NCBI RefSeq assembly: GCF_965363235.1
Contig: NC_134847.1
Location: 53,910,439 to 53,974,438, forward strand
Source: Mytilus galloprovincialis
Lineage: Eukaryota; Mollusca; Bivalvia; Mytilida; Mytilidae
DNA length: 64,000 bases
Reading direction: 5' to 3'
The translations under genes were made by a program, and so were the position numbers. The notes under the pieces are model-generated. The model made no database searches and was not told the DNA's origin. It was given only the letters and a program-made list of their open reading frames with translations. Numbering within the stretch: the stretch's first letter is position 1; every line of letters starts with the position of its first letter. Shown in pieces: positions 7,772-61,020 of this stretch.

Positions 7772-7981
7772 TCATCCACGCACTATTTCTTCTCTATATT
7801 TTTTGTATGCTATTGGAACTTCTTTTTTGTTGGTATTGAATCTCGACTTTATATAGAGAAACTTGTCATCATTTGCGTCACGGGGTATTTCGTAAATCTT
7901 CAATGGTGTATGATGATGCCTGTGGTGTTCAACTTTCATCCAACCCCCTCCAACACGTACCATATGTGCTTTTCCTTTAAG
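7772..7981 (-). CDS. GAR-5 terminal exon: C-terminal half of a GAR (Gas2) domain
   Basis: This last exon of GAR-5 has a clear acceptor (TTTTTCTGTTTCAG) immediately 5' of 7981 on the minus strand and enters in phase 0. It encodes 69 residues and ends in TGA at 7772-7774. The product starts LKGKAHMVRVGGGW, the GAR signature, then a His-rich helix (VEHHRHHHTP replacing the usual LxxYLxxHDP), then KFLYIKSRF, which matches the tail of the other cluster members. The GAR domain is known in GAS2 and spectraplakins as a microtubule-binding module. Here only its second half is visible; the preceding exon does not show the expected CxC and YxxG part. An old hammerhead-type repeat sits in the intron about 60 bp upstream (8039-8083). 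Confidence 0.75.
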   Translation of the reverse strand, partial: LKGKAHMVRVGGGWMKVEHHRHHHTPLKIYEIPRDANDDKFLYIKSRFNTNKKEVPIAYKKYREEIVRG

Positions 7982-8038
7982 CTGAAACAGAAAAACAAAA
8001 TAAATATATTGATTAGATACCTGGCTTTAAATTGTGTA

Positions 8039-8083
8039 TGCCAATTGCGCGTTTCGTCTACACTCGCCTCATTAGTGACGCTC
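8039..8083 (-). ncRNA. Degenerate hammerhead ribozyme copy
   Basis: Read on the minus strand, the order is stem I strand GAGCGTCA, core CTAATGA, a stem II region, GAAA, GCGC and TGGC. It matches the copy at 60353-60398 along its length. The core G5 has become A (CTAATGA instead of CTGATGA) and the cleavage-site triplet is changed, so self-cleavage is not expected. The flanking repeat extends over about 8010-8150. Confidence 0.5.
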
Positions 8084-8530
8084 GAAAAAAAAAGTCGTAA
8101 AAAAGGCCAAACGAAGTAAAAAGGTTAATAGCATTTAAGATCCAAAATGCAATTTGTTTTTGCCACTTCAACTAGGATAATCTTTTAAGGCGTGTAAAAT
8201 TAATGACAAAAGTGATTGATAATAATTATGCAGTTATATTTTAAAAACACCTTTTCGCTCACTCATCAGATTCTGTATTTCTAAGTTGTTTTGTCTTAGG
8301 ATAATATTTATTACATAGATTTCAAATGTTTCAATTCATATGATTTGATTTTTAGTTAAATATACAGTCAAACAGTAAGTTATTATTCAATGTTATAAAC
8401 TATCAAACCTGTAATATAATTTGGTTTTGTACAAGCTTGAAATATTAGTAAATGTTCATTCGGTACAAACTTGTAACATAACAATGTAAAGTCTATTGCA
8501 TGAATGTCCTAATATAAAACTACTACATTC

Positions 8531-8761
8531 GAGGCCCCTCATGGGGAGGGGGGGGTCCTAGTAATCACATAATCACCATTTTTTTGCCAATATAATCACA
8601 TAATCATTAAATATTTGCTTATCTTTAGAAATCAAATAATCATAAACTAAAAATACAGTCCTAGGTAATCAAATAATCATGAAATATTTGGCTTAATAAT
8701 CAAATAATCATTAAAAAAACGGCCAAGTAATCACATAATCAAAAACCCCATGAGGGCCCTC
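8531..8761. mobile_element. 231 bp non-autonomous inverted-repeat element with internal tandem repeat
   Basis: The ends are GAGGCCCCTCATGGGG and CCCCATGAGGGCCCTC, an almost perfect 16 bp inverted pair. The element is flanked by ACATTC at 8525-8530 and again at 8762-8767, a 6 bp target duplication. Inside, a degenerate motif like AATCANATAATCA repeats about ten times, so nearly the whole interior is tandem repeat. No coding capacity exists. Superfamily is not assignable from the termini alone. Confidence 0.75.
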
Positions 8762-9468
8762 ACATTCCAGTCTAACAACACGGGGTTTCTAGCTACAAAT
8801 GAAATAAAATGAAACAATGCCTTTTGGTAAAGGTCATGCTAAAAGCTATATTTACATCAAACGCAACTGTGATACCAACGAAAACAGTGCCAGTGTATGA
8901 ACAATTACATCGTTTATTAGTATGTGCATATTTTCATTTGATATTTTCTATTATTATACCTTACATATATTTTAAACAATTCTATTGGGTGAAACGTTAT
9001 CACGTGACATGGAATAATTCAGTTGTTTTTCATTCAATTGCAAGGAAGGACGAATAACCCTAAAAATTTGCACCAGCGGTGAATAACCCTATTATTCACC
9101 GGTGAATAACCTTTTCAGTTTGTTGATTTGTACTTGAGTTACCTCCCATGAAAATGACGTCACAGACGTAAATAAACAAAATGGCAGCGTTCACGTTACA
9201 CTGGAAGCCCACCGAGAGATGAGGAAATAACGCATCATTTGGACATGAATATAGAGTACCAAGCTGATGATAGCTCTTATAGAGTAACGGTCCTTTTCAG
9301 GGCCATCAATATTTTACAAAAAGATTCTACCTTTGTTGTACATTCTAGAAATTCTAGAACACAATTGTATTTTCAAACGTTAGCTTGTCTTTATCTTTGT
9401 TATGTAAAGTTTAAAAAATATAGAAAGTGTTAGAAAGGCCTTTCCACTGTTAGTTCAGTATAATAAAT

Positions 9469-9609
9469 CAATTGTGGCCCCTTAGAATCGATGAATATCC
9501 AAAATTGTCAACCCTTAAAAGTTATTTCACTTCGGGCTGCGCCCTCATTGAAATAACCTTCTCGTGTTGACAATTTTGGATATTCACCTTTTCAACGGGC
9601 CATAATTGT
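9469..9609. repeat. Fold-back element, long hairpin with GC-rich tip
   Basis: GAATATCCAAAATTGTCAAC at about 9493-9512 is inverted at about 9566-9585, and CAATTGTGGCCC pairs with GGGCCATAATTG at the ends. The tip is GGGCTGCGCCC. The arms are about 60 bp with some mismatches. The design resembles the fold-back at 40427-40559, although the sequence differs. Confidence 0.7.
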
Positions 9610-11280
9610 ATATTATACAACGTTATTATCATCTTTATATATATGTTGTTCATACCATTAATATTGCTTTTCTATTTCGTATCTTACAAACAAAAAACAT
9701 ACGTTCACAAGCCAATCTACAATGATTTTAGTTATCTAAACAACACATTTGATTTTGCTAACTAGGACACTATAGACTCGGTTTAGTGAGAGCAACTAAA
9801 AGAAGTCAAATCGATGCAATTTACACAAAAGTAATATTGTTTTCCAAATGATTTTGTTATGTATAGAAAACATGAAATACAGTTCATATTCTACCTAAAT
9901 TGTTCCTTGATTTTACTTCTTTTGGTTACTCGTACTTTACCGACAACCAGTGTCATACCACAGAGTAGGTATTCTGTCGAAAACTATAAATTTCGGAGTC
10001 AAAAGTCGGTAATAAGAAAAAGTCTATAGCACTAAGAGTTCATCGGTATACCGTTTTTTAAATCAAAATTTGCAAGGATGCATTTCATACACATCCGTTG
10101 CACACATGTTGAAATCAAATCGAGTTTATACACGTATCATGATGGTACATGTGTTTTTTTGTGCAGTGAACCTTGCATGCAATTCGTATTACCTTTTGCT
10201 TTTTCGGTTTTTCCTCTGTTGTTTTCTTAACCTATTGTTGCAATAAAAGTTTTTGCTATTCATTTAAAGTAATCGATATTTGTATAAAAATGTTAAACTT
10301 TGAAGGGTATTAATTGCTTGCAGCATCTTTTTTCTTCCTCGAAAATCAGGAATCGAGATATTTGTATAAAGTTTTGTTTTGATTCTAAATTTTCATTAAT
10401 TAAGCTTCTGACAAACTATTAATTGTCATTATATTGTTAAAAATGACGTTAATAATTACATACATATTCAGTTTTCTCTTTGATATAATCAGGTAAAATA
10501 AAATGAATAAATATAATGATTCTCCTAATATTTTGATATAAAAAGAATTAGGATCTAACAGTGTATCATAGTATGTTTTTTGTCTTTTAATATCAAAGTA
10601 CATGTAGTTACAATTTTCATATCTATTGACAATACCATGAAATAGGACCATGCGAGCATACATATAAACATCAAAACATGCAACAATCCAGCATGGATAA
10701 CACAGGTATACAACTTGACTATAAAGCCATGCACTGCGTACAACTGTATGGTAGGTGTTATAGCGCTATGATGCAAAATATGGACATTAGTCTGTTTCAA
10801 TTCGCGCTACAGAAGCTTACATGAGATTTTGATTAATTTTCTATGTATCAGATGGAAATTCTAGCTATATACTGTAACATATGTAACTAACAGCAGCATA
10901 CCATTATCACCAAGCAACTAATAACAACAACAAACATATCTGTAAAATTTGTATATTTTTGTACTAAATATCATTTTTATCATTATTTATGTAAAAAATA
11001 ACTTTTAAAAGAATGAAAAAATCATATCTGTTATCACAAACTATAAACAAATAAATTTATTAATTAATTTTAAAGTCGTTGAGAATCATACATTATCTTA
11101 ATTAGATATGACCAAGAATTTATATTTTAAAACAAAAGCATTTAATTTATTGTATAATTTTTTTACTGATATGATTTTTTCATGCGAAAATAATTGGTAC
11201 AAGTTTACAATAAATTGATTTTTTCTAAAGTGCATATATTTGCGTAAATAAACATGCAATAAGCTCGTGCGTTGTTTTAC

Positions 11281-12081
11281 CCATTTGTCTGTTTGTTGTC
11301 CACGAGAAAGCGGAGTTAAGTAAGTGTCATCCATGTCAGACTGACTTTTTAAACTCAGTTTTCTTCTATTTGGAAACTTGGAGTCTTCCACTATAACTAA
11401 TGGGTCGTCGTCAAATTGTCTTTTAGTATTGTCGATCACTTCCTTTATCTTAGATTTAGAATGATCGTCAAACCCCGGAATCACTACGTATCTAGGTTCT
11501 TCTTCTTGTTCGTTCCACTTCCGTTTGTCTTTTAACTGGGCCTCTATTTCCCCGGTGTATTTCAAAGGTTCAACCTTTTCCGTCTCTGGATTTACATATA
11601 ACAGGGTCGAATGATTACTATAATCGCCAGAAGATTTGAGTTTGCCATTTTTACTGTCATTCATATAAAATGAAGGCCCATGTGATAGTTTGGCGCCATA
11701 TTCATCAATCTGTACATGACCACGTGTTTTCTTCATCGAATGGGTACCAGATTGTTTAAGTGATGACCGTGGAATATTGCCATAATCATGAATTAGAACA
11801 GGAACTTTTTTCAAGTAAGTTTCAACCTGAAGCGGTGGAACAGAATCCTCAGAATTTTTTCGAGTCGACTTTGAAACGTGTCTGTGCTTCTTTCTCTCTC
11901 GTTTTGCAGTTTCAACATATCGTGGACGTTCATATGTAGTCGGCGTTTGTTTTCGTTTCTTTCTATTCTTTGACGACCTACGTTTCGGAGGGTATGTATT
12001 TTCTTTTTTGAAAAACGGTCCATAAAATGTTGTGCTTCCTTTTAGAGGTACTGTGTAAAAGTTGTCAGCTGTGTTAACACT
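11281..12081 (-). CDS. GAR-5 large internal exon, basic and low complexity
   Basis: This is an open phase-0 exon of 801 nt (267 codons). On the minus strand it follows TGTTATTTTTAAG and starts SVNTADNFYTVPLKG. It ends at TGG with donor GTAAAA, so the last residues are QQTDKW. Residues about 25-70 are strongly basic (KKENTYPPKRR, RKKRKQTPTTYERPR, KRERKKHRH). A motif GHVQIDEYGAKL near residue 120 echoes GNVYIDEEGRRIY in exon 1, hinting at an internal duplication. Later residues are acidic/basic mixed (KRKWNEQEEEPRYVVIPGF). Translated base by base, the 5' 267 nt contain no stop in this frame. No catalytic domain is recognised. The exon joins directly and in phase to the GAR exon at 7981. Confidence 0.65.
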
Positions 12082-17165: not shown

Positions 17166-17321
17166 CTTTTCAGTGGGAACAATTTTCTTAGACGCCGTAT
17201 ACTCCGAGGGTTCGTAATAAGCATATGTTGGTGGATCGGGTTCGGGGTTCTTAATCAAATGTTCTTTCTTTTTAGGTGCTTCATAATAAATTTTTGACGA
17301 GTCAGCTACAACTTCTAAATC
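17166..17321 (-). CDS. GAR-5 internal exon, Pro/Tyr/Lys rich
   Basis: This 156 nt phase-0 exon (52 codons) follows TTTTGTTTAAG on the minus strand and ends TGAAAAG before donor GTAAAT. It encodes DLEVVADSSKIYYEAPKKKE, then a stretch with NPEPDPPTYAYYEP, and ends SKKIVPTEK. The ending resembles the C-terminal edge of the large GAR-2 exon (RRIVPQPKRK), which also lies just before a phase-0 donor, so the two may derive from the same ancestral exon end. No domain is recognised. Confidence 0.6.
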
Positions 17322-17341
17322 CTTAAACAAAAGCATTAGTT

Positions 17342-20878: not shown

Positions 20879-22039
20879 CTTTTTTTGTTTCTTCTTTTTG
20901 GGTGGTTTCGGTTGTCTTGGTGGTTCAGGGGTTAGAATTCGAGGTGGTGGCGGTGGTGGTGGAGACGGTGTTCTAGGAGTAGGCTCCCTTGGTGTTGGTA
21001 GGTCCGGTTCCTGTACGACTTCCACTGTTTCCCTTTGATAATAATGTGTTGCAGTTTTGATTTTTCGTTGCTTTTGTTTCTTAAAAGTCTGTGTTTGTAC
21101 ATTACGTAACAGTTTTTTCTGTTTTGGCTGTGGTTGTATGACGTAATTTGTGGTCATCTGACAACCGACGTCGCGTGTTGGAGGACGTTGCATTATATAT
21201 TCCTGTGGGTATTCTATATATTCTTGTCTATGCAAAGCCCTTTCGTTAGCTGCTTGTTCTTTCGTAACATAGCCAACAGGTTGTCGGTCTCGATAGCTAT
21301 TCCTAGTAACGTATTTTACATTTGTTTCTTCAGATACTGGCCTTTTGACATACGTTACTCTTTCTTCGGATCTCGGTCTTCTGACAAGCTCAACCTCTCT
21401 GTTATCAATGATTCGTTTTTCACTAGAAGGTCGACTCCTTACAACATAACGTTCACGTAAATTTGAATCATCTACAACTCTTCTTGTTACCACACGCTCA
21501 CGTGAAGGCCGAACAAGAACTTCACTAGCTGGTCGTCCTGACCGTACAAACAATTCCTCGCGATTATCCAAAGTATTGTTGCGCCGTACGACATAATCAC
21601 TCGCGGGTCTTGAACGTGAAATGCGAGTACTTCTAATCGTATCTCCTTCCCTGGTCCTGAGTACGGGTCGTTCCTCTTCTGCAATAGCTCTTCTTGTTAG
21701 AACACGTGGTCGTTCTTCGACTACTCTTCTAGTTGAAGTATTTGGTCCTTTAGGTCGTACCGGGACCATATATTCTGAATCAGCTTCACTCATTGTTTCA
21801 TATTCTGTTTCTTCCTGTTGGTATACAATTTTTTCCGGTCGTTCACCGCGTTTCAATTCTCCATCATCCATAACAACGTACCGTTTTGAATTTCCACTTT
21901 TCCCAGATGTTCTATAAATCCGCCTACCTTCTTCGTCGATATAAACATTGCCTCGTCTGCCCTCGGGAGCATATTGAACATGTGAAGCTTTCATTCTAGG
22001 TGACCTCACCTTATGCTTAGATCTCGAACGCTCAGCCAT
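20879..22039 (-). CDS. GAR-5 first coding exon: Arg-rich disordered region with RPxSE repeats and polyproline
   Basis: It starts at ATG (MAERSRSKHKVRSPR) and runs 387 codons to an AAG/GTAATT donor. No acceptor-like tract precedes the ATG, so I take it as the first coding exon. The product is very basic. A five-residue motif recurs at 144-148 RPASD, 169-173 RPASE, 203-207 RPSSE, 221-225 RPRSE and 233-237 RPVSE, each usually followed by a short hydrophobic VVR/VLVR patch. VQTQT at 314-318 contains a TQT core like LC8 dynein-light-chain ligands. Residues 358-367 are nearly all Pro, and the end is PKPPKKKKQKK. With the exons at 19586, 17321, 12081 and 7981 the protein is 800 residues (817 with the micro-exon). 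A microtubule-associated scaffold is inferred from the terminal GAR half-domain. Confidence 0.75.
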
Positions 22040-27080: not shown

Positions 27081-27318
27081 GGCAGCAACCATTTGATTTT
27101 CTGGGAGGGGGGGGGGTTGGGTTTTTTTGGAAAAAAAAAGTTTGTTTCCAGTTTTTGGAGAAAAAAATAATTTGTTTTTGATTCTGAGAAAAAAAAATTG
27201 TTTGTTTCATCCTCAGCTGCCACTATATGTAATGCTAAAATTGAAAGAAAAAATTTGTCCAGAAAAAAACCCCATAGCCCCCCCCCCCCCCCCCCCAGAA
27301 AATCAAATGGTTGCTGCC
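27081..27318. mobile_element. 238 bp MITE with TTA target duplication and G-tract/C-tract
   Basis: GGCAGCAACCATTTGATTTT with CTGG opens the element and its exact inverse closes it, about 24 bp perfect. TTA flanks both sides (27078-27080, 27319-27321). A 3 bp TTA/TWA duplication is typical of PIF/Harbinger-type elements. Next to the inverted repeats lie a G-run (27107-27116) and a C-run (about 27281-27298). No coding capacity. Confidence 0.75.
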
Positions 27319-27384
27319 TTAGCAATCGTTCAAAGCGCGTTGTATAAGTTTGTAGTACGTCGAAATACAAAGGTAAAATTGAGA

Positions 27385-27635
27385 AAGGAAATGGGGAATG
27401 TTTCAAAGCGACAACAACCCGACCATAGAGCAGGCCAAGGCCACCAATGGGTCTTCAATGTAGAGAGAAACTCCCGCACCCGTCGGCGTCCTTCAGCTGG
27501 CCCCTTAAAAAATATGTATACTAGATCACACAAGACTAACAAAGGCCAGAGGCTCCTGACTTGGGACAGGCGCAAAATTGCGGCGGGGATAAACATGTTT
27601 ATGAGATATCAACCCTCCCCCTATTCCTCTAGCCA
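27385..27635 (+). repeat. Dispersed repeat family R5
   Basis: AAGGAAATGGGGAATGTTTC, then CGACAACAACCCGACCATAG, GGCCACCAATGGGTCTTCAA, CAGGCGCAAAATTGCGG and CAACCCTCCCC appear in the same order as in 41175-41495. It is inserted in the 0.9 kb inverted-repeat element. Confidence 0.65.
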
Positions 27636-27938
27636 ATGAAGGAAAGTAAATACGCTTGATGAACGCTACAATCCCAGGAAATGTGTATGCAGCATAAAAA
27701 AACATACAACATACGCCAACATACGTTTCTAGTACGCCCAATACACGCTTAAATCTCGTTTTGCACACGTTACAAATAAGATTGACAGGTTAAATGCATC
27801 CAAAATTACTAGCGTATTGGCAGCGTAAATGATTTTGAACACGCCAGTGCTATACGCTGATGTGTGACGCCGGTATCAGTTGTGTTTCCTCAATGCTTTT
27901 CAACTTCGTATTTTATTTGGCCTTTTAAACATTTTTTT

Positions 27939-31524: not shown

Positions 31525-32928
31525 CTTTGGTTTTAATTTTCTTTTGTGGTACTTAGGCTGTGGTATTTCATCTTTTAATACTATCTTTTCGTCATCACTT
31601 ACGTCAAAATATGTCCTCTTTGTACGACCAAGTGGCTCACGTGGGTATTCCCTAACTTGAAGACCTTGTACACGTGCTGTGACAACAACGACTGTATCCG
31701 GTTCATCTCTGTTTTCTTCGCCTAATATTGTAGCAGTTAGATAAAAATCAGATTCAAAATTATCATCCGGAGCATCTGACGCCTTCACGCTTAGATTATC
31801 GTCATCCGACGCTGATTCTACAGGCACGTCCTCTTCCTTAACTGGATTTAGAGACTTTAATATATCGGTATTAAGAGACCTCGTCTTTTCTTTCTCAGCA
31901 AACTGTTTTCGCTTCATGACCACGTACAAATCGAAACCATTTTCAAATTGATCTGACTGAAGATGTTTGGTGTCAATGTGTTCATTGTTTTCTTCATCTT
32001 TTTTCGAATCGAACTTAGTTGTCCTTTTAATGATTTCAATAGGTGGAGCAGTTCTAATTTGAGTCTTGGTTGCATAACTCTTGTCCGTTAACTCAGTATC
32101 TAATTGAAACCTATAAGTGTTGTTGATTGGACTCCATAATTTCCTTTTTACAGTTTCGTTAGGTTTTCCCTGAAGACTGTCATGAGAGTACCGTTGTCTT
32201 ATTACATTTTGCACAATACAATCAATTTCTTCAACATTGTCAGCAACGACTGGAGCTATATAGTTATCCCTTGGATAGAGTGGCGCTGGCGTCAGTTTTC
32301 TTAGATTTTCCTTTGGATAGTCATTAATTTGTCTGAATTGATGAATTTTTTCTGTCATCAAATTGTTATATTTGTGAGTTTGTTCATTTTCTTTTTCATT
32401 GGAATCCTTTGATCTATTATTATCTCTTCTACGTTCAGCTTGAGTGTTCTGTTTAGTGGCACGTGTTGAACTTTCCCGTTTACTTTTACGCGATCTGTGT
32501 TCCCCAGATGAATTTAGTTGAAATGACATTGAATGTGTATCAAAACTTACTTTGGATTTTGATTGACTTGCAGTCGATTTCAACTTATGTAATCTTCCGA
32601 TTCTATCGAATTGTTTATTATTATATTCTGCGCTATCATCCACACAAGACATTACAGTTATAAAAGGTGCATCACGTTCTTCTCCGGCTTCTAATGGCAC
32701 GAAATTATCATCATACATTTCATCGGCATAATGAATGACTTCATAATTTCGAACTCTATCCTTTGACCAATACTTAGGTCTTATGTTGCTTTTGATAGTT
32801 CCAGGTGATATCCCAGTACAGCTTGTAACACTTTCATTGATGACTTTCGGTTCTTTTTGTTTAACTGTTTGAAATGCTTTTTGATTCATTCCCTTCCGGT
32901 CATTTCGCTCATTTGCATCTTTAAACAT
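31525..32928 (-). CDS. GAR-4 first coding exon, long disordered protein
   Basis: The exon starts at ATG (MFKDANERNDRKGMNQ) and stays open for 468 codons to a phase-0 donor AAG/GTAGAG at 31525. The protein is rich in Lys, Asp, Glu, Asn and Ser. A basic SR-like patch (HRSRKSKRESSTRATKQ) lies near residues 143-160 and an acidic region (SASDDDNLSVKASDAPDDN) near 375-395. Around 398-425 a beta-prone stretch (FYLTATILGEE, TVVVVTARVQG) is the most ordered part. The end, FDV…EIPQPKYHKRKLKPK, resembles the end of the large GAR-2 exon (FDVFERRIVPQPKRK), supporting common origin. No GAR exon with VGGGW lies before the next gene, so the 3' partner is uncertain: the candidate at 31371-31267, or splicing into GAR-5 exons, which are also phase 0. 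Confidence 0.65.
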
Positions 32929-36468: not shown

Positions 36469-36687
36469 TTAATTCAATGTAACTTTTTTACTGGCAGAAT
36501 TTTTAACTTTTGAATGATGCTTGAGTTTTGGAGGACATTTGTAATGTGACTGGAAACTAAGGTATGATCGTCCTTTATAGTTGCTAGACCTGTTATATTC
36601 TCTCCTTGTAACTGGCACATGTCTTTTGTAGTAGTCGTTAATATCACTCCATCCGCCACCTACCCTAACCACTTTGTTGCAATCTTT
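36469..36687 (-). CDS. GAR-3 terminal exon: C-terminal half of a GAR domain
   Basis: After the minus-strand acceptor TTTTCTACTTGCAG, this phase-0 exon encodes 72 residues and a stop. It opens KDCNKVVRVGGGWSDINDYY then KRHVP, matching the GAR consensus VRVGGGWxxLxxYLxxHxP, and continues to SYLSFQSHYKCPPK, the shared tail of the cluster. The C-terminus is basic (KHHSKVKNSASKK). The preceding exon ends EKYFRVPSK and shows no CxC part, so only the second half of the GAR domain is recognisable. Confidence 0.8.
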   Translation of the reverse strand, partial: KDCNKVVRVGGGWSDINDYYKRHVPVTRREYNRSSNYKGRSYLSFQSHYKCPPKLKHHSKVKNSASKKVTLN

Positions 36688-37211: not shown

Positions 37212-39602
37212 CTTTGACGGTACTCTGAAATATTTTTCCACCTTTTGGTGTGCGTGATGTGGAGGCGCAACATTAACACCAATATCGTGTATATCAACGA
37301 TGGACTGTAAAATATCTTTCTTTTCCTCAAATTTGTCTTGTTCTTTCTTGAATTCGTGTACCATAGAAGCAGACACATCTTTATTTTCATCATTCGAATC
37401 CTCTGTTGAATCTTCGGTCTTTTTACTTGGAACTCTATCTACTGTCTCGTTTATGAATTTGCTCTTCTTTGCAGTTTTGTCCCTTTTCGCAGTATTAACT
37501 TTTAACCTCTGCAATTCGTCACTTTCTTTGCTGATCAAATTAACACCCGTATCATCTTTATAGGCACTACAATTTTTGCTACGGTCCCGAAATGGGTCTT
37601 TGGATTCCTTTTTTACATTCTTTATATTTCTATTGTCGGATTCGTTTTGTTCTTGTTGCCTGTCTTTTTGGTTTAGCTCATTCTTGATACGAACTTCTTT
37701 TATTCTTTGGTACTGTTTTTGAAATTCATTTTGTACCATTATTAATACTAAGTCTTTATCGTCATCCTCTGAATAAAAGCAACGATTTTGAGGACGGCGT
37801 GCTGCTTTAATTACTTTCTCCCTGAATTTATTGTTCCTTGCATCTACCTTTGCTTCTTGTTCGTTTGACGCTTCTATAGTCCAGGCATTGTATTTTGGCT
37901 TAGGCACTCGTGAAATATGTTCTCTTCTATTTTTTTCAGTGGGGTTGCTTACATTAGCGTTCGTTTTTGTCATATTGTCTTTACTAGTGTTATAAGTCAT
38001 GCGATTTTTGTTGGAATTTACTTTTGGTTCATTTGGCACCCCTTCATTTTGGTCGACTCGATCAGAAACGTCAGAAAACTGATGCTTCTTCCGCATACGC
38101 CAATGCAATTCATCTTTTGTGTGTGAGTGAAAGAGAATATTTTGATAAGAAGAATACAAATTTGCTGGAGACTCTTCAGTTACCTCTATTGAGCTTGAGA
38201 AAACAGATGCATTAGACACTGACCTGTACACATGTCGTTGTTCTGATGAAGAATGGAACGTTTTAGTAGAATTTGCTCGATGAAATTTTCCGTTTATCAT
38301 TTCATTAACAGGAAACGGATTATATTGAGAGGGTTTTCTTGGCCTACCTTCATTTTCGTCATGATCAGAATCGTATCTTAAATTAAAATATTTGTTCGAT
38401 TTTATACGTGTTGGTTTCCTTGGTTGTTTATAGATATCTTTGACAGGTGTGTCTTCGGAAGTGTTGTTGGCTTTACTGTTTGACTGCTTTTCATTTTCAC
38501 TGCGATGTGTGTTTCTATCTTTAACATGCATTTTGTTTGCGGATTTAGGCTCATTTTCACTACGATGTGTGTGTCTATCTTTAATATGCATTTTGTTTGC
38601 GGATTCCATCTCACTTTCACTACGATGTGTGTGTCTATCTTTAATATGCATTTTGTTTGCGGATTCCATCTCACCTGCACTAAGATGTGTGTTTTTATCT
38701 TTAACATGTATTTTGTTTGCGGATTTCGTCTCACTTTCACTTTGATGTGTGTTTCTATCTTTAACATGCATTTGATTTGCAGATTTAGGCATCTGCTTAC
38801 TCTCATTATCCTTATTTGTATGACGTTCGTTGCTATGGTCTGTTTTCATTGCGTTCGTTGTCGATACTTTATCAGTCTTTACGTCTTTTGATGTTTTGTG
38901 TTTAGATAAATCGTTTTTCATATCTATTTCCAATTTGCTTTTTACCTTGATGCCTTCCTTTTTATCCTTACAAACAGTTGTGTAAATATCAACAACATGA
39001 TTGTCATTTCGTCTAGCCAATTCACATTCAAGTCGCTTTCTGAGTATTTCAGCAAATTTCACATTTTGTTCCGAACTAATTAACTCTCTCCTTTCCTTTT
39101 TATGTTTTTTAGTTTTCTTTTTCTTTTTCTCAGCTGACATATCTTCTGTATCGTTTGATATATTTTGCAATTGTTTTTTTGTAGTTTCTAATAAAATATT
39201 TTTAGAAAGTTGGCGAGATTTATCTTTTGAAGTAGTCCCGGGTTTTTTTCTTTTTTCTCCCTTGTTTTCTGAATTATCCATTTGGTCTTTCTTGTTTTGT
39301 TCTCCTTTTGAACCTGAGTGATCAGCAGTTCCAACGCATGATAGTTCATGAACTTTGCCACTGCTGCAACGAATACTATCAAGAAATATTCCCTCGTTTC
39401 CCGACTTTTCACTATTCGTCATATTTTGGTTTACTGATTTTGATATTACATATGTTCCAATATTCGTGAACTCCCTATCTTTACAATTTTCACACCAAAC
39501 TGAATCAATAATAGCTTTATGATTTGAATGTCGATTTGTTCCTTTTTCTACTGGCATTACTTGTAATCCTTTTACGTCAAGTGCAGAATTTCTTTGGTAC
39601 AT
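37212..39602 (-). CDS. GAR-3 first coding exon, 797 codons, with a 20-residue tandem repeat
   Basis: Starts at ATG (MYQRNSALDVKGLQVMP) and ends AAG/GTAATT, phase 0. Residues 34-40 contain WCENC and 78-89 CSSGKVHELSCV, suggesting a small Cys cluster. Residues 158-172 form a lysine-rich patch (EKKKKKTKKHKKERR), a likely nuclear or polyanion-binding signal. VKFAEILRKRLECELARR at about 181-198 is predicted helical and is conserved in GAR-3psi. Residues 273-372 are exactly five 20-residue repeats (consensus KSANKMHVKDRNTHRSESEM), encoded by 38487-38786. KYFNLRYDSDHDENEGR at about 404-420 is also conserved in the pseudogene. The rest is Lys/Glu/Asn/Asp-rich and probably disordered. With the GAR exon the protein is 869 residues. 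Function unknown; microtubule association is inferred from the GAR half-domain. Confidence 0.75.
38487..38786 (-). repeat. In-frame coding minisatellite, 5 x 60 nt
   Basis: Five 60 nt units lie end to end, each encoding 20 residues such as ESANKMHIKDRHTHRSESEM. Units 3 and 4 are almost identical, suggesting recent expansion. The paralogous pseudogene has only one recognisable unit core (VLHVKDR), so expansion followed the duplication. Confidence 0.85.
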
Positions 39603-40660: not shown

Positions 40661-41174
40661 CAACCACACCTTAATATATTGGTAAGACTAATATATGGAA
40701 GGTCTTCGACAAATAATACATACTTGCAATTGGTTCTAATAGGACATGGCTGGTGGAGAGATATTGGATTCTGATTGTTCAATTCAAAAACAAAACTCTC
40801 CTCCAAAATTACATAAGAAAATGTTTTGATTGCAGGGGACTAATGTAAAGACCGCAATTCGAAGCTAAATTTGTAAAAAAAAAATTCTTCTTTATAAAAA
40901 AAAGTTAGGAAACATGTGCGATACGGACTTCTTGGAGGCCAAGTTAATAACGTTAGGACGACCAACATAACAACACGTTGTCAATGTTTTAGCTTTAAAA
41001 AAAAATGTTTGTTTTTGAAGTAACCGAACAACACGGGACCCTACCATATCACGTGATACTATAATGTTTAGAAGTTTTTGGAAATTATGAACTTGCACAA
41101 TACACAGAAACCATCTTCGTTACATCTATTACTTAAACTGTCGTTGTAATGTTGATTTTACCGCATACTCTTTA

Positions 41175-41495
41175 AAATTGAGAATAGAAATTAGGAATAT
41201 GTCAAAGAGACAACAACCCGACCAAAGAGCAGATAACAGCCGAAGGCCACCAATGTGTCTTCAATGCAGCGAGAAAATTTCACATCCGGGGTTGGGCCTC
41301 AGATGACCCCTAAATAAAACTGTGTACTAGTTCAGTGAAAACTGAAGTCATACTTAACACCAAAGTATAATAGAACTAGAATTAAAAAACATATAAGACG
41401 AACAAAGTTCAGAGGTCCTGACTAGGAATAGGCGCAAAAATTAGACGGGGTTAAACATGTTTTGTGAGATCTCAACCCTCCCTTTGTTCATTCCA
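41175..41495 (+). repeat. Dispersed repeat family R5, long copy
   Basis: GAAATTAGGAATATGTCAAA, GAGACAACAACCCGACCAAA, AGGCCACCAATGTGTCTTCA and GATCTCAACCCTCCCTTTG follow R5 order as in 27385-27635. Confidence 0.65.
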
Positions 41496-42588: not shown

Positions 42589-43797
42589 TTAATTCGCAAT
42601 CCTAAACATCCTTCCAGTTCGTTTTGGTATAGCATGACATTGTTTAGTAGCATTTGCTCGATAAAATTTTCCATTTTTCATTTCATTTACGTTGTCAAGA
42701 AACGGATTATATCGAGAGAAATTTTGTGACCTAGCTTCAATTTCTTCATGATCAGAATCGTATTTTATAATGAAATATTTGTTCGATTGAATATGAGATG
42801 GCTTTTGTAATTCCTCGTGTCCACCAAAAACAATACAATCTTCGTATGTGATTTTCGGTTTAATTTGCCGATGTATTTGGATTTTATTTTGAAATGATCG
42901 GTCTTTAACATGTAATACATTAGGCGGTTTCTGTATTCTCCTTTTCTCATCCGCTTTTCTGGCATTCGATTCTTCGTAAGTATCTTTTCCTATTGAATAT
43001 GTTGTCTTTCCGTTATTAAACTGTACATGTGTATTTCGTTTGTTTGTACTGGAAGCGTTTCTAACTTCTTTCACCGAATCGTTGCGTTTTAATATTAAGC
43101 CTTCCTTACTGTCTTTAGTTACAGTCCTGTCAATATCAGCTGTTTGTTTCTCTTTAGACCCAGGGTCTTGATTGGTATTTTGTTTAGCTAATACATCTTC
43201 AAGCCTCTTGATAAGTATTTCTGCAAATTTTGCAGGTTCGAAATCGTTTTCCTCTTTGTTACGTATTTTTGTTGTTTTCTTTTTCTTTTTCTTTATGTTT
43301 CTAGACACATAATCTGTATCATTTAATACATTTTCTAAATTTCCAGGGTGCTCTTCAATAGTTTCTGATGTTTGAAAAATATCTTTTGTAGGTTGTACAC
43401 GCTTTATCAAACTTACATTACTTTGACGACTTTCGTCTTTTGAGCTGGACACTGACTTTCTACGTTCTTCATCCTTGTGATCTGCACTATTATTGTTGTT
43501 GTTTTGACCTACTTCCTTTATATCTGAGTGTTCAACAGTTCTTAAGCAATATGGTTCCTGCACATTCCCACTGGTACAACACATAACACCAAGATATCCC
43601 TCGTTTTTCGATTGTTCATACTTTCCACTTTTCTTTTTCATTTCACCGTTGTCTGTTGATTTTAGTTTTTGATTAGTTCCAAAACTTATTACTTCCTTGT
43701 TTATGGTTAATACACAGACTAAAATCAACTATGTCCTTATTTTTTAACCGTTTTTGTTAACCGCTTCACGATAAGTGTATTATTTATTTTGGCAAAT
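42589..43797 (-). pseudogene. GAR-3psi: truncated duplicate of the GAR-3 first exon
   Basis: Residues such as FEPAKFAEILIKRLEDVLAK, KYFIIKYDSDHEEIEAR and MKNGKFYRANATK match GAR-3 in order, and the 5' flank (43798-43990) matches that of GAR-3 (39603-39795). At the position of the GAR-3 ATG there is ATT (43795-43797), and a TAA follows six codons in. From 43728 down to 42589 the frame is open for 379 codons, homologous to GAR-3 residues of about 50-445, and then diverges into a short tail (QCHAIPKRTGRMFRIAN) and stops. No donor follows and no GAR exon lies before GAR-3. Only one core of the 20-residue repeat is present. The open remnant could still be translated from an internal Met or be an exon of another transcript. 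Confidence 0.7.
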
Positions 43798-45806: not shown

Positions 45807-46013
45807 TCATATAGTACGATGAGCTTGATTATATCGTGGTGACTTATAATTTGATCTGAATCCATAGTACTTTTTCTTTGCCTCCGGTAAATCAGAGTTT
45901 TTTAAATGTTCTCTTTCATAAACGAATCTTTTCACTGGTTCATGTCTTTCCATATAGTCATTCATTGTATTCCATCCGCCACCAACCTTGACTGCGTAAT
46001 CGGGATGCTTTTT
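45807..46013 (-). CDS. GAR-2 terminal exon: C-terminal half of a GAR domain
   Basis: After the minus-strand acceptor TGTAATTATTTCAG, the phase-0 exon encodes 68 residues and TGA. It starts KKHPDYAVKVGGGWNTMNDY then MERHEP, a good GAR match, and continues to KKKYYGFRSNYKSP, the tail shared with GAR-1 and GAR-3. The first 34 nt of this exon, its acceptor and adjacent intron are tandemly duplicated (45980-46140 and 46141-46301), leaving a decoy exon start upstream. Confidence 0.8.
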   Translation of the reverse strand, partial: KKHPDYAVKVGGGWNTMNDYMERHEPVKRFVYEREHLKNSDLPEAKKKYYGFRSNYKSPRYNQAHRTI

Positions 46014-46301
46014 CTGAAATAATTACATTGGAAATATTAGTGATCGTACTGTAGTCAATGATAAAAGTAGTAGTTAAAGTTTTTCCAATACTGGTTGAAT
46101 TTACTTTTTGACACTTTGCATTGCATTTTTGTGTTTATTTCACCAACCTTGACTGCGTTATCGGGATGTTTTTTCTGAAATAATTACATTGGAAATATTA
46201 GTGATCGTACTGTAGTCAATGATAAAAGTAGTAGTTAAAGTTTTTCCAATACTGGTTGAATTTACTTTTTGACACTTTGCATTGCATTTTTGTGTTTATT
46301 T
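45980..46301. repeat. 161 bp tandem duplication spanning the GAR-2 exon 2 acceptor
   Basis: Bases 45980-46140 are repeated as 46141-46301 with only about two differences (GCGTAATCGGGATGC versus GCGTTATCGGGATGT). On the minus strand each copy has the acceptor TTATTTCAG and the first 11 codons of the exon (KKHPDY/NAVKVG). Confidence 0.9.
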
Positions 46302-47039
46302 CAAATTCGTTTATGTGAAATATAGGTATCTTGACATTGCTCAAGGTCATATTTTCTCTAACCGTTTTTGACATCTTTTCCCCTAAACCAGTAGGATTTT
46401 GGATGTGTACTGATTGATACTTAATCCAAGAGCATGCTATTTTATTAGTCGTTATTTGCTTTGAACTAACTGTCAGTAACTGCGAGTAATCTCAGATTTG
46501 TACTTAGTGTCTTTTTGTTATTCGGATGTATAAGAACCCGTCCTTGTCGATTCTGTGTGTTTGTTGAAGTTGTTTTTTTTGTATCCAAGAGTGGAACCCT
46601 GCCACATTATTCGTGTGCCTGTCGTGTCAGCCTGTTATTAAGTGGTTGTCGTTGGTTTTCGTGATTAAAGTATATGACACAGACAAGAGTACAGAGGGAT
46701 GGTTAAAAAAACCAAACGATACCCCATCCAGAAATAAGATTAACGAACATATATTAACAGTAAATGCACCCTTTTGGTCATTGCATCAACTTATTTATTA
46801 GGTGCTCTGAGTATAAGACAAGTGTTTAGACTTATCGACTGTGGTTTTTTCAGTACTGTTCAGAACATTTGCCAGGAGACAATTGTTCAGTAGGTTTTCG
46901 GACAATTCAGTATATAATTGATGTGTACAGAAAATACATACTACTGAACAGTTTGAACATACAATACACATATTTCACTTTTCACGAATGTGACCTACCG
47001 AATTAGACTATGCACCGGATTTGTTATAACATAAACAAC

Positions 47040-47925: not shown

Positions 47926-49572
47926 CTTACGTTTCGGTTGAGGCACGATACGCCGTTCGAATACGTCAAATGGTTTCGGATCTACTATTTTTGTAGGTGG
48001 TCTCAAATCTATATAATAAACTAACTGGCAACCTTTTTTACGTGGCTGCGGGTACATCGATTCAAAATTTTCATCGTAATATATTTTTACGTCAATATTG
48101 TCAGGTGCTTCGTCTCGCTTGTCAGTTAATGTATTGGAGTTGTTTCTGCATTGATCAAAATTATACACAACATTGTCCTGTTTATTATTATTTAAAATTG
48201 TTTGCCGATTGTCAGAATTGAGCTTAGGATTTGTCCATACTTCTAATTGATTGCGTCTCTCATCTCTTTCCTTCTTTTCCAAATCAATCTGAACATTCTC
48301 CTTAATGTCGTTTGTTTTCTCTGGGTCATCCAACGTGCTTGTCCCCTTCGTATTACTAGGAAGTGGTTTTGTCGGGTTTTCGATAGTTGCAGTTATACAT
48401 GAATCGCCGGTAATGTTCGACTTTAAACGTGGTTTGTTTACTTCCTTTTGAACTAAACTTACAATATGCCTTTCCTGTGCATGTTGTCGTCGTTCTTGCT
48501 CGTATTTCCTTTGCTCTTCTCTAGATTTTACCATTTTCGAATAGTCAACGAGAAGACATTCTGTCTGTGTTGATCTCGTAGACAGAGCATTATATCTGTC
48601 ATTTTGTTGAGTTTCAGAACTGTCAGTTGTATATCCATCGCTACTATCTGATTCGGAACTTTCATCTGAACTTGTATACGCGTAACTTTCTATAGACCCT
48701 TCCGGTTTTCTTGTGTTAGGAAAGGATTGTATATCTTTGACAATCATCTTGTTCTCACTTATCTCATTCTTTCTACGAACTTCTCTATAGGGTCGGAGAA
48801 AAGTAACATCATCATTGTTATTGACTGCAAGTTTAGTTTGATATGGAAAGTTGTGTCCTCGTGTTTCACCCCCATAAGGTCGAGTTCGTGGAAGAGTTTC
48901 CATCCTACGTTTAACAATATTATCGGATTTATTAGAAGATACAAATTTACTCGATTTATTTCGATCTATTTTTCTGTCAGAAGGATCTTCAATGATGTGA
49001 TAAGTTACGACACGTCTTGGGGATGAATTTGAAAACCTTGCAGTTTTCATTTTTGACCTTTGAATCGGTTGTTTAGTTTGAGTGCTGTAATCAGTAGAAG
49101 ATTCGGTTTCACTTTCACTTTCCGAATTTTCTCGGCGGATAAATCGGAAGGATGGAGATGAATACGAATATGTTTCAAGTTCTTCCTTTTTAGGCAAATT
49201 GGATGTTTTATTATTCCGTTTTTCAATTGGCTTTGATGGCATGACATGTACTTTATAAACTGTGTTATCTCTGTAATAATCTGAAGAAGATTGAGTTTCA
49301 CTTTCGGTTTTACAATTTGTTTTCCTGACGACATGAGATGATGGATACATAATTTTATCTCTTTCTGGTTCTTTCTGTCGAAGACTGTACCTTTTCATAA
49401 TTCTGTTATCATGCTGTTCGGAAACTGTCCTCGACGGTACAAATCGTATCAAGCGTCTTCTTTGAGGATAGCTGTAGTAAACTCGTTCCTCTTCTTCTGA
49501 ATTATAGTCATCATCACTATATGGATCACCGGTATCTGGTGAATATTTATGCATCCTTTTAGCTTTGTACAT
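47926..49572 (-). CDS. GAR-2 first coding exon, long disordered protein with TQT motifs
   Basis: Starts at ATG (MYKAKRMHKYSPDTGD) and is open for 549 codons to a strong phase-0 donor AAG/GTAAGA. The N-terminus is acidic (SDDDYNSEEEE, 19-29). Two Ser/Glu/Thr clusters occur at 150-160 and 301-320. TQT, the core of LC8 dynein-light-chain ligands, occurs at 164-166 (DYSTQTKQ) and 335-337 (STRSTQTECL). Residues 346-380 form a charged, probably helical segment (REEQRKYEQERRQHAQERH). The last part is slightly more hydrophobic (CQLVYYIDLRPP) and ends FDVFERRIVPQPKRK. With the 68-residue GAR exon the product is 617 residues. A microtubule-associated role is inferred. A TATA-like element lies 91 nt upstream of the ATG. 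Confidence 0.8.
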
Positions 49573-55475: not shown

Positions 55476-55489
55476 GTTGAAGGCCGTAC

Positions 55490-56924: not shown

Positions 56925-57130
56925 GTTAAATATCCTGTACCAAGTCAAGAAAATGGCCATTGTTATATTATAGATCTTTTCTGTGGGTGTTACATTTTAA
57001 TGTTATGTTTTTGTTGTGACGTAGTTCTCCTCTTATATTTAATGTTTCCCTCAGTTTTAGTTTGTAACCCGGATTAATATTTCTCAATCGATGTATGAAT
57101 TTCGAACAGCGGTATACTACAATTGTTTTT
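56925..57130 (+). repeat. Dispersed repeat family R4
   Basis: ATCCTGTACCAAGTCAAGAA, ATGGCCATTGTTATATTATA, CCCTCAGTTTTAGTTTGTAA and GAACAGCGGTATACTAC read as a dispersed repeat that I associate with bivalve genomes by recollection. It is present once here. Confidence 0.45.
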
Positions 57131-57374
57131 TTATACGTTATATATCTAATAGCGAAAAAACGTAAACGCTAGTCTGTGTACATTAGATGCTTCACCAATC
57201 AAACGGTCTATTGAACTGTTAACAGCAATTCCCTCTACGTGTTATGCACACATCAGATTCAACTTTGCAGAAAAATGATGTTCACAATTTAAATACTGAC
57301 ACCGACAGAATACATTTATTTCACTACAAACCAATCCTAAGAAATACACTTTTTATTTGTGCAAGAATAACAAA

Positions 57375-57625
57375 AGACACCAAAGTGAGATTCAATTCAA
57401 AGTTTTGAAAAAAATATAACAACGCCATGGTTAAAAAAGAAGTAAATCAACAGATATTCAACAGCTCTCAACACACAAGTTGGAAATCTGAAGACTGAGC
57501 AATACAAACCTACTAAAACGGAGGTTGATCTCAAATGCTTCGGAAGGATTGGCAGATGCTGCTTCACATTAAGCTCCCGTCGTGATGGATTGTAAGTACA
57601 AACCAGAATGTTAAATCTAATTCGG
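57375..57625 (+). repeat. Dispersed repeat family R1
   Basis: AAAGACACCAAAGTGAGATT, ATAACAACGCCATGGTTAAA, GTTGATCTCAAATGCTTCGG and CTCCCGTCGTGATGG are R1 phrases in the order expected from the reverse copy at 47040-47275. Confidence 0.6.
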
Positions 57626-59017
57626 TAGGACACATCCGGGCAAACGGGGACGAGATTGTAGCTACGACAATTTAAGCATATCCATCGTTATTCGTGGAAC
57701 ATATATTCCATAACGGTCAAGTAATACGTAATGGTGTCCGTTAAATATACGAAAGGATGATTTAAACTTCAAAACTTGGAATTCTTGATTAAGTAGTTTC
57801 CTTTTGAGCAGCAATTCTCTATCAATGAAAATACATGCCCTGTAATAAAGTATCATTTGAGAGGTATGCATAGAAACATAGAAATGGAAAGGTCACAATC
57901 GGGATGCTGAAATAAAGTAAAGTTTTGTTTGCAACTGATCTTTATTTTCAAATCAATATATAAGTAATGATATGAAGCAGATTCAACTGTATCTGATGTA
58001 TTCTTTATATCAAGTTCACCAAATTACGAGAGAACATCATCAATATAGTGGAAAGTGAAGTTAAAGGATACTGTTCACTTCTTTAACTACTTTTTAAGAT
58101 CCTCAAAAGTTTTTTGTATATAGTCAGCCCAACATTAATAAAAAGAGAAGACGTGCATAGTTGGCTCCAATGTGTATATCGTATACTTGTTAAAATACAC
58201 GTCCTCCAAATTAAACAAATATGTTGTCAATTACGAAATCAATCTTGATAATGTCACTTTCATCAGATTTTTTTTAAATTTGTAAACTGAATAACACATT
58301 GCAAAATTAAGAGGTAAAATCGTTTTAAACTTGTGTTCACATAAACATATTAAAATAAAATTCACTTATGTATTCAAAATAATCGTTATAAAAAGTTAAG
58401 AACAGCTGCACATTATCTATATCAAAATAGAATTTATATTATTTATAGTTAAGTTCCCAGTTCCATTATTCATAAAGTATTTAAATGTATGGTGGTGTTT
58501 GATAAACTTTTGTCTCAAGTAATATTGTCAATGTACTCCTCTAAAACATAATTTAAATAGCAAGATACCCTTTCTCAGATTGTTTCTAGTGTTGTTTACG
58601 AAATATGCATGTAGCATATTTGTGAAACCACGAAATCTGTGATTGCAGTGTTCATTTGATTCATTTCTAATTTTATTCAGTTTAAAAAAAAAGTGTTCTT
58701 GTTTACTGTCGTATTTTACTTACAGAATGTTGTTTTGTTGTTATTTAATATTAGATACCTATCAGTTACAAAAAACATTCAGCGAATCAATTGTTTCTAC
58801 AAAAAGTATTTATTTTAAAATACTGTAAATTCAGTAATTAGTGCATTTATTATTGCTATTTTGTCATTTTGGACTAAAATGTGATTTTAATATTTGAGAT
58901 ATTGTGTAAAATCCCGTTTAATTCATATAAATATTTAAAAACGCGAGTTTAAATTATTGCGATGCTAACCTGTCACATTTTTCGCAATGATAAAAACATC
59001 GCCATTATATCTGAAAT

Positions 59018-59242
59018 TTATAGTAGTGAATAATAAAACTGTTTTGACTGGTTCCAGGACTTATAATGTGACTTAATTCCAAGATATATGTCTTTAACTT
59101 CACACGTGTTATTATATAATGGCCGTTTATACTCTGTTATCTTAAACTTATATGGAACATGACGGGCCATGTAGTCTTCCAGTGTCTCCCAACCACCACC
59201 AACTTTAACCATCACGTGATGTTTCTCTGACTTTTCATTGAC
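59018..59242 (-). CDS. GAR-1 second exon: C-terminal half of a complete GAR domain
   Basis: After TTTATCTTGCAG on the minus strand, the phase-0 exon encodes 74 residues and a stop. It begins VNEKSEKHHVMVKVGGGWET then LEDYMARHVPYK, the closest match in the window to the GAS2 GAR consensus HVMVRVGGGWDTLxxYLxxHDP. It ends with DIYLGIKSHYKSWNQSK, the tail shared with GAR-2 and GAR-3. Joined to the exon at 61020-60892 it completes the domain. An AATAAA-like hexamer lies about 170 nt downstream (near 58847). Confidence 0.8.
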   Translation of the reverse strand, partial: VNEKSEKHHVMVKVGGGWETLEDYMARHVPYKFKITEYKRPLYNNTCEVKDIYLGIKSHYKSWNQSKQFYYSLL

Positions 59243-60024
59243 CTGCAAGATAAATGAACTGTGAATATTTATGAAAGTTCTTAGTTCCGTGTTTAAGGCC
59301 TCGCAGTTACTTTGAGATGAAGAATAGCAATACAACGCTGTTCTTTTGCTTTTTGCTTGTGTTTTTCGTAGTGTATGTACTTATTTTGTGACATGGATAT
59401 ATACCCCATATCCTTTGTTTTTCTATTATAATAGATCGCCACTTTATAATCTAAGATACAATTGCTTACTGCATTGCATTGCTAAAATATGCAAATATTA
59501 TCATTTAATTTGCCGAGTTTCTAATCTATTGGTTTACCATTATTAGCCAATCAGAACGCTTTAAACCAAATATTAATAGGGTTACGCGTTTGAATTTAAT
59601 ATCCATTAATAATCCTATTCTCGAATAAATATATAAAGAAAGTATGAGAACAGTATTGGCTATTTGAAAATATCTTTTAATTGTACCATGCGGACAAAGT
59701 GAAACAATTCATAAATATAAATCTATTTTTGAAACTTACAATCGAAGTCTAAATGACCTACAGAAGACCACGGGACTTTGCAGAAAAACCGAAACAATCA
59801 TTTTTCCGATGAGCTTAAGTTTAAAGATTTTGTTCCAAAAGAGACCTCAAACCAAGGTTTGTGAAACTTTAAAATTCACAATAACAGTAGAACAAAATAT
59901 ATACAAAAAGATCTTTAATAACACAATACAAAGAATTAAAAACAAACTATTATATGAATGTAAATGAAGATGTTAAGGAAAATTAATTAATTAATTTCGA
60001 CTGCCACTGGAAAATAATGCTCTA

Positions 60025-60240
60025 TTGGATAGAGATAGAAATTTGGCCTTGCAACAGGCCACCTACGGATCCGTCAAAGGGTTGTTGCAAGGGTTCTTAA
60101 TGTGTAGAGAGCATAGCACTATATGCATACAAGGCATCAGATTCGACATCCCGATTCCAACTGGACTGTTTAAGAAGAATAATAAAGCTACTAGTGTGAA
60201 ACATATTATAAATGTAATACCTAGGGTCAGTTACATGTAA
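60025..60240 (+). other. Repeat-associated open frame, unrecognised
   Basis: A 71-codon plus-strand frame (MDRDRNLALQQATYGSVKGL and on) lies in the GAR-1 intron directly upstream of a hammerhead-containing repeat (60285-60435). It has some protein-like composition (IRFDIPIPTGLFKKNN) but no recognisable domain. It may be a relic of a retroelement linked to the ribozyme repeat, or chance. Confidence 0.2.
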
Positions 60241-60284
60241 CAACTGATAATATAACTTTATAATATGTTGTAAAGTAAAGTTTT

Positions 60285-60435
60285 AGGGATTTTGGTCCTC
60301 AATGCTCTTCAACTTCGTATTTTATTTGGATTTTTCTTAACTTTTTGGATTCGAGCGTCACTGATGAGTCTTTTTTAGAGGAAACGCGCGTCTGGCTTAA
60401 ATACAAAATTTAAATTCTGGTATCTGTGATAAGTT
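60285..60435 (+). repeat. Dispersed repeat with degenerate hammerhead
   Basis: CTCAATGCTCTTCAACTTCG, TATTTTATTTGG and TCTGGTATCTGTGATAAGTT match 27893-28030 in order. The copy lies in the GAR-1 intron. Confidence 0.6.
60353..60398 (+). ncRNA. Hammerhead ribozyme copy with damaged stem II and stem I
   Basis: Stem I GAGCGTCA, core CTGATGA (60361-60367), GAAA (60381-60384), palindromic ACGCGCGT, cleavage C and TGGC are present. The C that should close stem II next to GAAA is G (60380), and the distal stem I pairing (TGGCTT for TGGCGT) is weakened. Cleavage is likely reduced or lost. Confidence 0.5.
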
Positions 60436-60891
60436 TAATTCCTACATTAAAATAATGTTAGTCTTTTAGAATGTGTGAAACTGTACAATATTGGGTTAGC
60501 TAGTTATGTTACAAGGTAGAAAAGTCATGCTTTCTCATTACTTATTCGTATACTATAATTGATACATATTATTACAATGGTTGTTAAACGCTTGTTTTCT
60601 TTATCTATTATGTAACTTAAGCAATATTTAGAGTGCATTGTAAACTTTTTCGAGGATTTGTATGTCGTTGTGTGATAATTTGTTTCTTGATATTGATGTG
60701 CTTAAAGTTTAAAATATATGTAAAGTAAGTTGTCAAGATCATTACACGTAGTTCGACTAATAAATCATGGCTAAAACTAAGATTGACTTTATATATATTT
60801 TAAATTTTATCTGAAATACATGACCAACGTTTCGATCATCTATCTTAAAGTGATATAACAAAACATTCATCTTGTTATGTAATTTACATAC

Positions 60892-61020
60892 CTTAATATG
60901 TAATAGTTTTCCCATTAAAAAATACTGGCCGCTTCTTGTCTTGCTCAAATACTGGTAACATTTGCATGGGGGAAATGCGTTATCTGTAACCATAGAAAAG
61001 CTGTGTCTCAGAGCAGCCAT
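60892..61020 (-). CDS. GAR-1 first exon: N-terminal half of a GAR domain
   Basis: Starts at ATG and encodes 43 residues, MAALRHSFSMVTDNAFPPCK then CYQYLSKTRSGQYFLMGKLL and HIK, before a consensus donor AAG/GTATGT in phase 0. CKC, followed by YxxG-like QYFLMG and KLL, fits the first half of the GAR domain of GAS2-type proteins. With the 59242 exon the protein is 117 residues, essentially a stand-alone GAR domain. The frame is also open upstream of the ATG to a possible acceptor (TTTTATGTTAG), so this may be an internal exon of a longer gene, for example one with a calponin-homology domain outside the window. Confidence 0.7.

Follow-up and report, generated by a model that had tools for sequence, protein, structure and literature searches.

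A 64,000-nucleotide stretch of Mytilus galloprovincialis DNA (C10:53910439-53974438 of a 1.385-Gb genome) holds a tandem array of minus-strand loci in which very long coding exons lie upstream of short exons encoding part of the GAR domain known from GAS2. Elsewhere in this genome a single ORF of 770 amino acids has ten matches to a foot-protein decapeptide repeat, which points to a blue mussel of the Mytilus edulis group. We refer to the whole stretch as the window; a window coordinate is the C10 coordinate minus 53910438. Our preferred reading, which we consider likely, is that the array is a tandem gene family descended from GAS2 that has kept the last exon of that gene as a portable tail behind new long exons. 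All gene models are known here from genomic DNA alone, with exon junctions placed by sequence. On this footing homology, gene order, intron position and phase, residue losses and the chimeric make-up of long exons are established, and we infer that a long exon and its tail form one transcript and that descent ran from GAS2 through locus F to loci A, B and E. A previous sequence-only reading had seen in the window a cluster of GAR genes built from interchangeable cassettes; its observation is confirmed in part and its interpretation supported in part, with the explanation changed.

The six longest open reading frames (ORFs) of the window measure 815, 555, 505, 430, 379 and 338 amino acids, and all six lie on the minus strand. 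Because no ORF above 188 amino acids arose in 100 first-order Markov sequences 64 kb in length, chance does not account for the long ORFs. The window contains five intact long ORFs on the minus strand, one decayed ORF and four GAR exons, distributed over loci F, A, B, C and D/E; A2 and A3 lie just past the right end, Z denotes a GAS2 gene farther right, and S1-S6 belong to a second cluster. The earlier count of five loci plus a decayed copy thus stands for strand, all long ORFs being on the minus strand, but the GAR exons number four, not five, none having been found for locus C. Lengths of 387-797 codons had been given for four long exons, and from ATG to donor these indeed span 549, 797, 468 and 387 codons. 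The extent of about 53 kb proved too short, as the array continues through A2, A3 and Z beyond the window and has a second cluster at C10:37.70-37.75 Mb. The features, all on the minus strand, are as follows.

60892-61020, minus strand: locus F first-half GAR exon (CKC...GQY...GKLLHIK), ATG-started, donor gtatgt, phase 0; Pfam GAS2 match.
59018-59242, minus strand: locus F terminal exon, second GAR half and tail YLGIKSHY, own stop; local profile and Pfam GAS2.
47926-49572, minus strand: locus A long exon, ATG start, 549 codons, predicted disordered, donor AAG/gtaagaaatt; relatives A2 and A3.
45807-46013, minus strand: locus A terminal exon, second GAR half and tail YYGFRSNY, own stop; profile and Pfam GAS2.
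45980-46303, minus strand: 161-bp tandem duplication, 98% match, covering the acceptor and start of the locus A GAR exon.
42589-43641, minus strand: decayed long exon copied from locus B, 350 codons, recognised by identity to B.
37212-39602, minus strand: locus B long exon, ATG start, 797 codons, donor AAG/gtaatt.
36469-36687, minus strand: locus B terminal exon, second GAR half and tail YLSFQSHY, own stop; profile, with Pfam GAS2 just below cut-off.
31525-32928, minus strand: locus C long exon, ATG start, 468 codons; no downstream GAR exon found.
20879-22039, minus strand: locus D/E long first exon, ATG start, 387 codons, motif TRDVGCQMTTNYVI; second-cluster relatives.
17166-17321, minus strand: putative small internal exon of locus D/E, 52 codons, both junctions phase 0, not homology-anchored.
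11281-12081, minus strand: locus D/E putative internal exon (E2), 267 codons, no start codon near the 5' end, not homology-anchored.
7772-7981, minus strand: locus D/E terminal exon, second GAR half and tail FLYIKSRF, own stop; profile and Pfam GAS2.
65766-64546 on the window scale, minus strand: A2 long exon with early stop, recognised by similarity to A.
78917-77760 on the window scale, minus strand: A3 long exon, recognised by similarity to A.

A local profile picked out the four terminal GAR exons at E 6e-33 to 1.5e-29, against E 2.1 for the next ORF; it was trained on these same four window exons and two canonical ones, the independent test being Pfam. Against the Pfam GAS2 family (PF02187, curated cut-off 21.3 bits), locus F with its first half joined scored 40.9 bits, A 25.7, E 23.5 and B 21.0; three of the four pass and B falls just under, which upholds the GAR identity proposed earlier for these exons. 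The match spans both halves in F (profile positions 12-67) and elsewhere the last third only; for the first-half exon of F, on which our own profiles had been trained, it is the independent evidence. With filters off, the profile search returned no fifth GAR exon within the window and none behind locus C, over the 9.5 kb that separate it from the next long exon. Aligned to 1v5r, the four window GAR exons and a fifth outside the window start at about the same point, mouse GAS2 residue 243; they hold the second domain half only. The first half is present at one of the four loci (F) and was not found for A, B and D/E: it had no match (CxC...GKY) at any of ten long-exon ends (A, A3, B, C, D, E2, S1, S4, S6 and S2; best E 1.1), and a search of 264 kb surrounding the window plus 18.6 kb from loci of the second cluster found separate first-half exons only at F and Z.

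This second half comprises strand 4 with residue 252, the GGG hairpin at 254-256, W257 and a helix with residues 266-267. Nine terminal exons were compared (four from the window, that of Z and four from the second cluster), and GGG, W257, H267 and P269 are retained in all of them. Residue 266 is R in seven and H in two, while residue 252 is R or K in five and T in all four second-cluster copies. C270 is replaced throughout (9/9), and D268 is retained only in S1, S4 and S5. A tail motif, [YF]-[LYFE]-x-[IF]-x-S-x-[YF], follows the helix in eight of the nine; the ninth, S2, is apparently frameshifted before it. The vertebrate GAS2 C-terminus is presumably similar to this motif, a likeness that we keep as a lead only, no paper having been found for those letters. 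Mussel terminal exons run to 55-76 codons and mouse GAS2 to 72 residues past 242. Passages of a cryo-electron microscopy study place the GAS2-microtubule contacts at residue 252, the GGG hairpin 254-256, W257 and 266-267, plus K237 and R242 of the first half (PMC12084551); as the retained GGG, W257, H267 and P269 fall in this contact region, we count them in favour of a GAS2-derived tail. The same passages give mouse GAS2 as 314 residues, of which 277-314 are required for dimerisation and bundling (PMC12084551).

Two separate observations concern the integrity of GAR exons. The 161-bp duplication at 45980-46303 is recent and repeats the acceptor and first codons of the locus A GAR exon, creating a truncated decoy start for that exon; were the upstream copy used in splicing, the protein would lack the GGGW hairpin. 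On C14, two more spectraplakin-type GAR exons with an altered GGGW (LAEDW and VRGEW, at 3.99 and 4.03 Mb) neighbour a GGGW-bearing one at 4.87 Mb.

The junction into the GAR exon is informative in its position. All seven donors and six acceptors placed in the window are phase 0, as the sequence-only reading had stated; homology anchors only the junctions into GAR exons, several donors having been placed only by an in-phase GT within the ORF. A GAS2-like gene on C5 has its GAR domain interrupted directly after residue 242 (CGG/gtaagg ... ctacag/ATA, phase 0), and the intron of Z and of the cluster GAR exons is identical to it in position and phase. A GAR domain on C1, spectraplakin-type by its likeness to MACF1, has its intron farther upstream, and the four other introns read in Z comprise two of phase 1 and two of phase 0. 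Human GAS2 is one residue shorter than mouse GAS2, so by our own arithmetic an intron after human codon 241 occupies the site after mouse residue 242. Passages of the structural study describe a human hearing-loss variant there, c.723+1 (codon 241), which causes intron retention (PMC12084551). Shared by the cluster, Z, the C5 gene and vertebrate GAS2, the phase-0 junction is, judged on these positions, GAS2's own inherited intron; descent then explains the phase-0 rule, and the short exon would be GAS2's last exon.

A candidate source lies on the same strand about 100 kb upstream of locus F, with other genes between. This gene, Z, owns the fifth GAR exon, at 160862-160677 on the window scale and hence outside the window. 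Its joined exons match Pfam CH (41.7 bits) and GAS2 (70.5 bits), both above cut-off, and its best PDB match is the CH domain of GAS2 (E 9e-39). Z has a calponin-homology (CH) domain spread over several exons, both GAR halves and a tail; it is complete in its domains only, the first exon not having been found. In a genome search with Z (18 candidates scored, E up to 0.01), CH stretches were found only in Z and on C5, and Pfam detected no CH domain in the five window long exons. Taking the CH domain, a complete GAR domain and the zinc ligands as the marks of the GAS2 family, the window genes fall outside it, yet they appear to descend from GAS2. Between cluster and Z (about 70000-150000 on the window scale) lie same-strand repeated ORFs with GGPANMLCLPNNPELSNRT and C1q-like ORFs, the C1q label having been given by eye. 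Within the window, plus-strand ORF stretches at 1619-1840, 27097-27636 and 41091-41303 share the phrase NVSKRQQP/NMSKRQQP, which suggests a dispersed repeat.

The long exons are of a different nature. Every one falls on the disordered side by charge-hydropathy score, S2 being borderline, and their proteins are probably disordered, although the measure is crude and flags GAR exons as disordered too. None of the five scanned matched any Pfam family. Types A, B, C, D and E are mutually unrelated (hhalign probabilities do not exceed 2.4%; the top pair, A versus D, covers 30 columns at E 0.019), which agrees with the earlier statement that the long exons barely align. That statement does not hold within types, since A has relatives A2 and A3 (39-40% identity, E below 1e-49), the decayed copy at 43.7k is a paralogue of B at 39.6k (34% over 243 amino acids, 47% over 101) and D has relatives in the second cluster. 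The decayed copy has an early stop relative to B, and no GAR exon of its own was found. The next best match of B (E 2e-6, on C13) has eight stops and lies over the repeat region; C has one weak match (E 0.2) beside the second cluster, and E2 (12081-11281) matches nothing else genome-wide at E 1. The B exon contains an in-frame 60-bp repeat (x 4.9, 38491-38786) with a 20-residue unit such as SANKMHVKDRNTHRSENEPK. Derivation of the long ORFs from transposons was considered and rejected: the five scanned gave no Pfam match, and copies are few and all on C10 save the weak B matches. Dynein light chain motifs of the TQT type occur in A, D, S1 and S4 and are missing in A2, A3, B and C; no argument is built on them.

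The second cluster lies on the same contig, 16 Mb from the window; it contains four GAR exons, and long-exon matches occur there at five sites. Long exons S1, S4, S6 and S3 combine a D-like beginning with an A-like end (D versus S1, 56% over 109 amino acids; A versus S6, 47% over 55, E 7e-12, hhalign 97.9%; A versus S1, 31% over 119, E 4e-6); the S2 exon resembles D and has an end rich in proline. Identity to the GAR exon of A is 60-69% for those of S1, S5 and S2, and in a tree all four GAR exons of the cluster group with A (support 87/86). S1 and S4 carry an A-type C-terminal module and, downstream, an A-type GAR exon; we count this joint duplication of both parts as evidence for one gene. 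The recombination visible in these alignments is thus a mixing of modules within the long exon rather than at the intron. Modularity as claimed before is supported in this sense; the interchangeable phase-0 cassettes are not supported as they were put forward, the phase being explained by descent. One copy of the motif R/N-[DNS]-V-x-C-Q-x-x-T-x-[YF] is present in D, and five long exons of the second cluster have two copies each.

The ratio of nonsynonymous to synonymous change (dN/dS) was estimated by the Nei-Gojobori method from pairwise alignments; several of the copies are broken, and silent sites are saturated in many further GAR pairs. For long exons it is 0.64 (0.48-0.85) for A/A2, 0.70 for A/A3, 0.70 for A2/A3, 0.62 for B/B2, 0.48 (0.33-0.70) for D/S1, 0.54 for D/S4, 0.53 for S1/S6, 0.75 for S6/S3a and 0.67 for S1/S4. 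The interval lies below 1 in seven of the nine pairs and includes 1 for S6/S3a and S1/S4. GAR exons give 0.33 (0.13-0.69) for A/S1, 0.26 for A/S5, 0.20 for A/S2, 0.31 for S1/S4, 0.34 for S1/S2 and 0.35 for S5/S2, together with 0.80 for S1/S5, whose interval includes 1. Long exons look more loosely constrained than tails, with overlapping intervals. The earlier picture of a tandem family with a GAR-derived terminal exon and N-terminal parts more variable than the tail is supported.

Several observations weigh against our preferred reading. For the long exons of locus C, A2 and A3 no GAR exon was found in the 264 kb covered, and that of A2 has an early stop; S6 and S3 bear the A-type module with no GAR exon found in downstream DNA that was only partly covered. 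An AlphaFold model of a lone terminal exon, made from a four-row alignment, was poor (predicted local distance difference test 48), and no fold is drawn from it. The GAR tree does not settle the origin, the domain being too short for that, and places E weakly with GAS2 and the upstream gene and the others apart (69/80). We take the zinc ligands of GAR to be a Cys of CKC, D268 and C270. The domain is described as carrying a zinc-binding motif, and the mussel tails probably cannot bind the zinc to which the stability of the GAR fold is attributed. Passages of the structural study report that charge reversal at mouse residue 252 weakened binding from 0.69 to ~47 uM, the largest effect among the reported mutants (PMC12084551); with Thr at this position, the second-cluster copies may have lost microtubule binding. 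The fixed microtubule-binding tail of the sequence-only reading is therefore too strong a phrase, given that only half a domain was found in three of four window loci, with C270 gone in all nine exons and Thr252 in 4/4 second-cluster copies.

The loci without a GAR exon in range (C, A2 and A3) could also mean that each long ORF is a single-exon gene in its own right, with the GAR exons as leftover GAS2 fragments lying downstream by chance, a reading further favoured by the donors placed only by an in-phase GT within the ORF and by the absence of Pfam families from the five long exons scanned. We hold it unlikely. Long and GAR exons were duplicated jointly in S1 and S4, and in A, S1 and S4 alike the A-type module is accompanied by a GAR exon of A type; A, S1 and S6, though not S4, have the donor context gtaagaaat in common. 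The GAR exons are open to their stops, with dN/dS of 0.20-0.35 in five of the six pairs among A, S1, S2 and S5 and 0.31 for S1/S4, and an exon beginning in mid-domain is unlikely to be made alone.

That the cluster is instead decaying, an expanded GAS2 family reduced for the most part to pseudogenes that now do little, seems to us very improbable. A2, the 43.7k copy, S2 and S3 do look broken (A2 by its early stop, S2 and S3 by apparent frameshifts), and long-exon dN/dS is high, at 0.48-0.75 with two of nine intervals including 1. Yet five long ORFs remain open, far above the simulated maximum, and the other seven intervals stay below 1, some of these pairs involving broken copies. True exon shuffling, with long and GAR exons swapped between loci as cassettes at the phase-0 intron, would fit a single boundary, one phase at all placed junctions and unlike long exons before related GAR exons. 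We doubt it nonetheless: among the genes compared, no one long-exon C-terminus stands before two unlike GAR exons, the visible recombination (D-type N-part, A-type C-part) sits inside the long exon, and the common phase is accounted for by descent.

Under descent from GAS2 with a retained last exon, GAS2 would have duplicated in tandem, and its copies would have lost first the actin-binding part and then the zinc half. Locus F would be an intermediate, with no actin-binding part seen and both GAR halves retained, and A, B and D/E would have only the last GAS2 exon, spliced through the inherited phase-0 intron to new long exons. These long exons would have duplicated, decayed and recombined, and the second cluster would have arisen 16 Mb away. 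The tail may contact the microtubule by the GGGW hairpin and the helix behind it, its C-terminal part may pair two chains, and the long part may serve as a fast-changing spacer or cargo arm. More tentatively, as a reading that we consider less likely than not, we suggest that the last GAS2 exon is a portable, zinc-free half-GAR tail, still microtubule-binding and chain-pairing, that was repeatedly captured by new fast-evolving disordered proteins, giving a microtubule-linker family private to blue mussels and perhaps used in sperm or cilia. The family is apparently caught in steps on one strand of one chromosome, from a full-domain GAS2 through a GAR-only copy to last-exon-only copies, and suggests how an intron of long standing may determine the portion of a domain that is inherited. 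The cluster also poses a test: can the microtubule-binding hairpin of GAR work without the zinc-held half thought essential?

No described GAS2 expansion in mussels or other bivalves was among the literature matches listed, where the GAS2 paper that surfaced concerned tilapia GAS2. Expansions of the C1q type repeat one architecture, and the mussel cluster, like them a product of tandem duplication, differs in retaining the terminal exon while the rest was replaced. Tandem expansions in bivalves are described for C1q-domain genes (PMC6835236). As in the GAR domains of spectraplakins (MACF1/ACF7, dystonin), the second GAR half is recognisable in the window exons; a difference is that the spectraplakin-type GAR on C1 has its intron farther upstream. 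Compared with GAS2, no CH domain was found in the window genes, the first GAR half was not found in three of four, C270 is lost and a long disordered exon stands in front. With GAS2 they share a terminal exon running from residue 243 to the C-terminus, a phase-0 intron after residue 242 (mouse numbering), GGGW, H267, P269 and a similar length.

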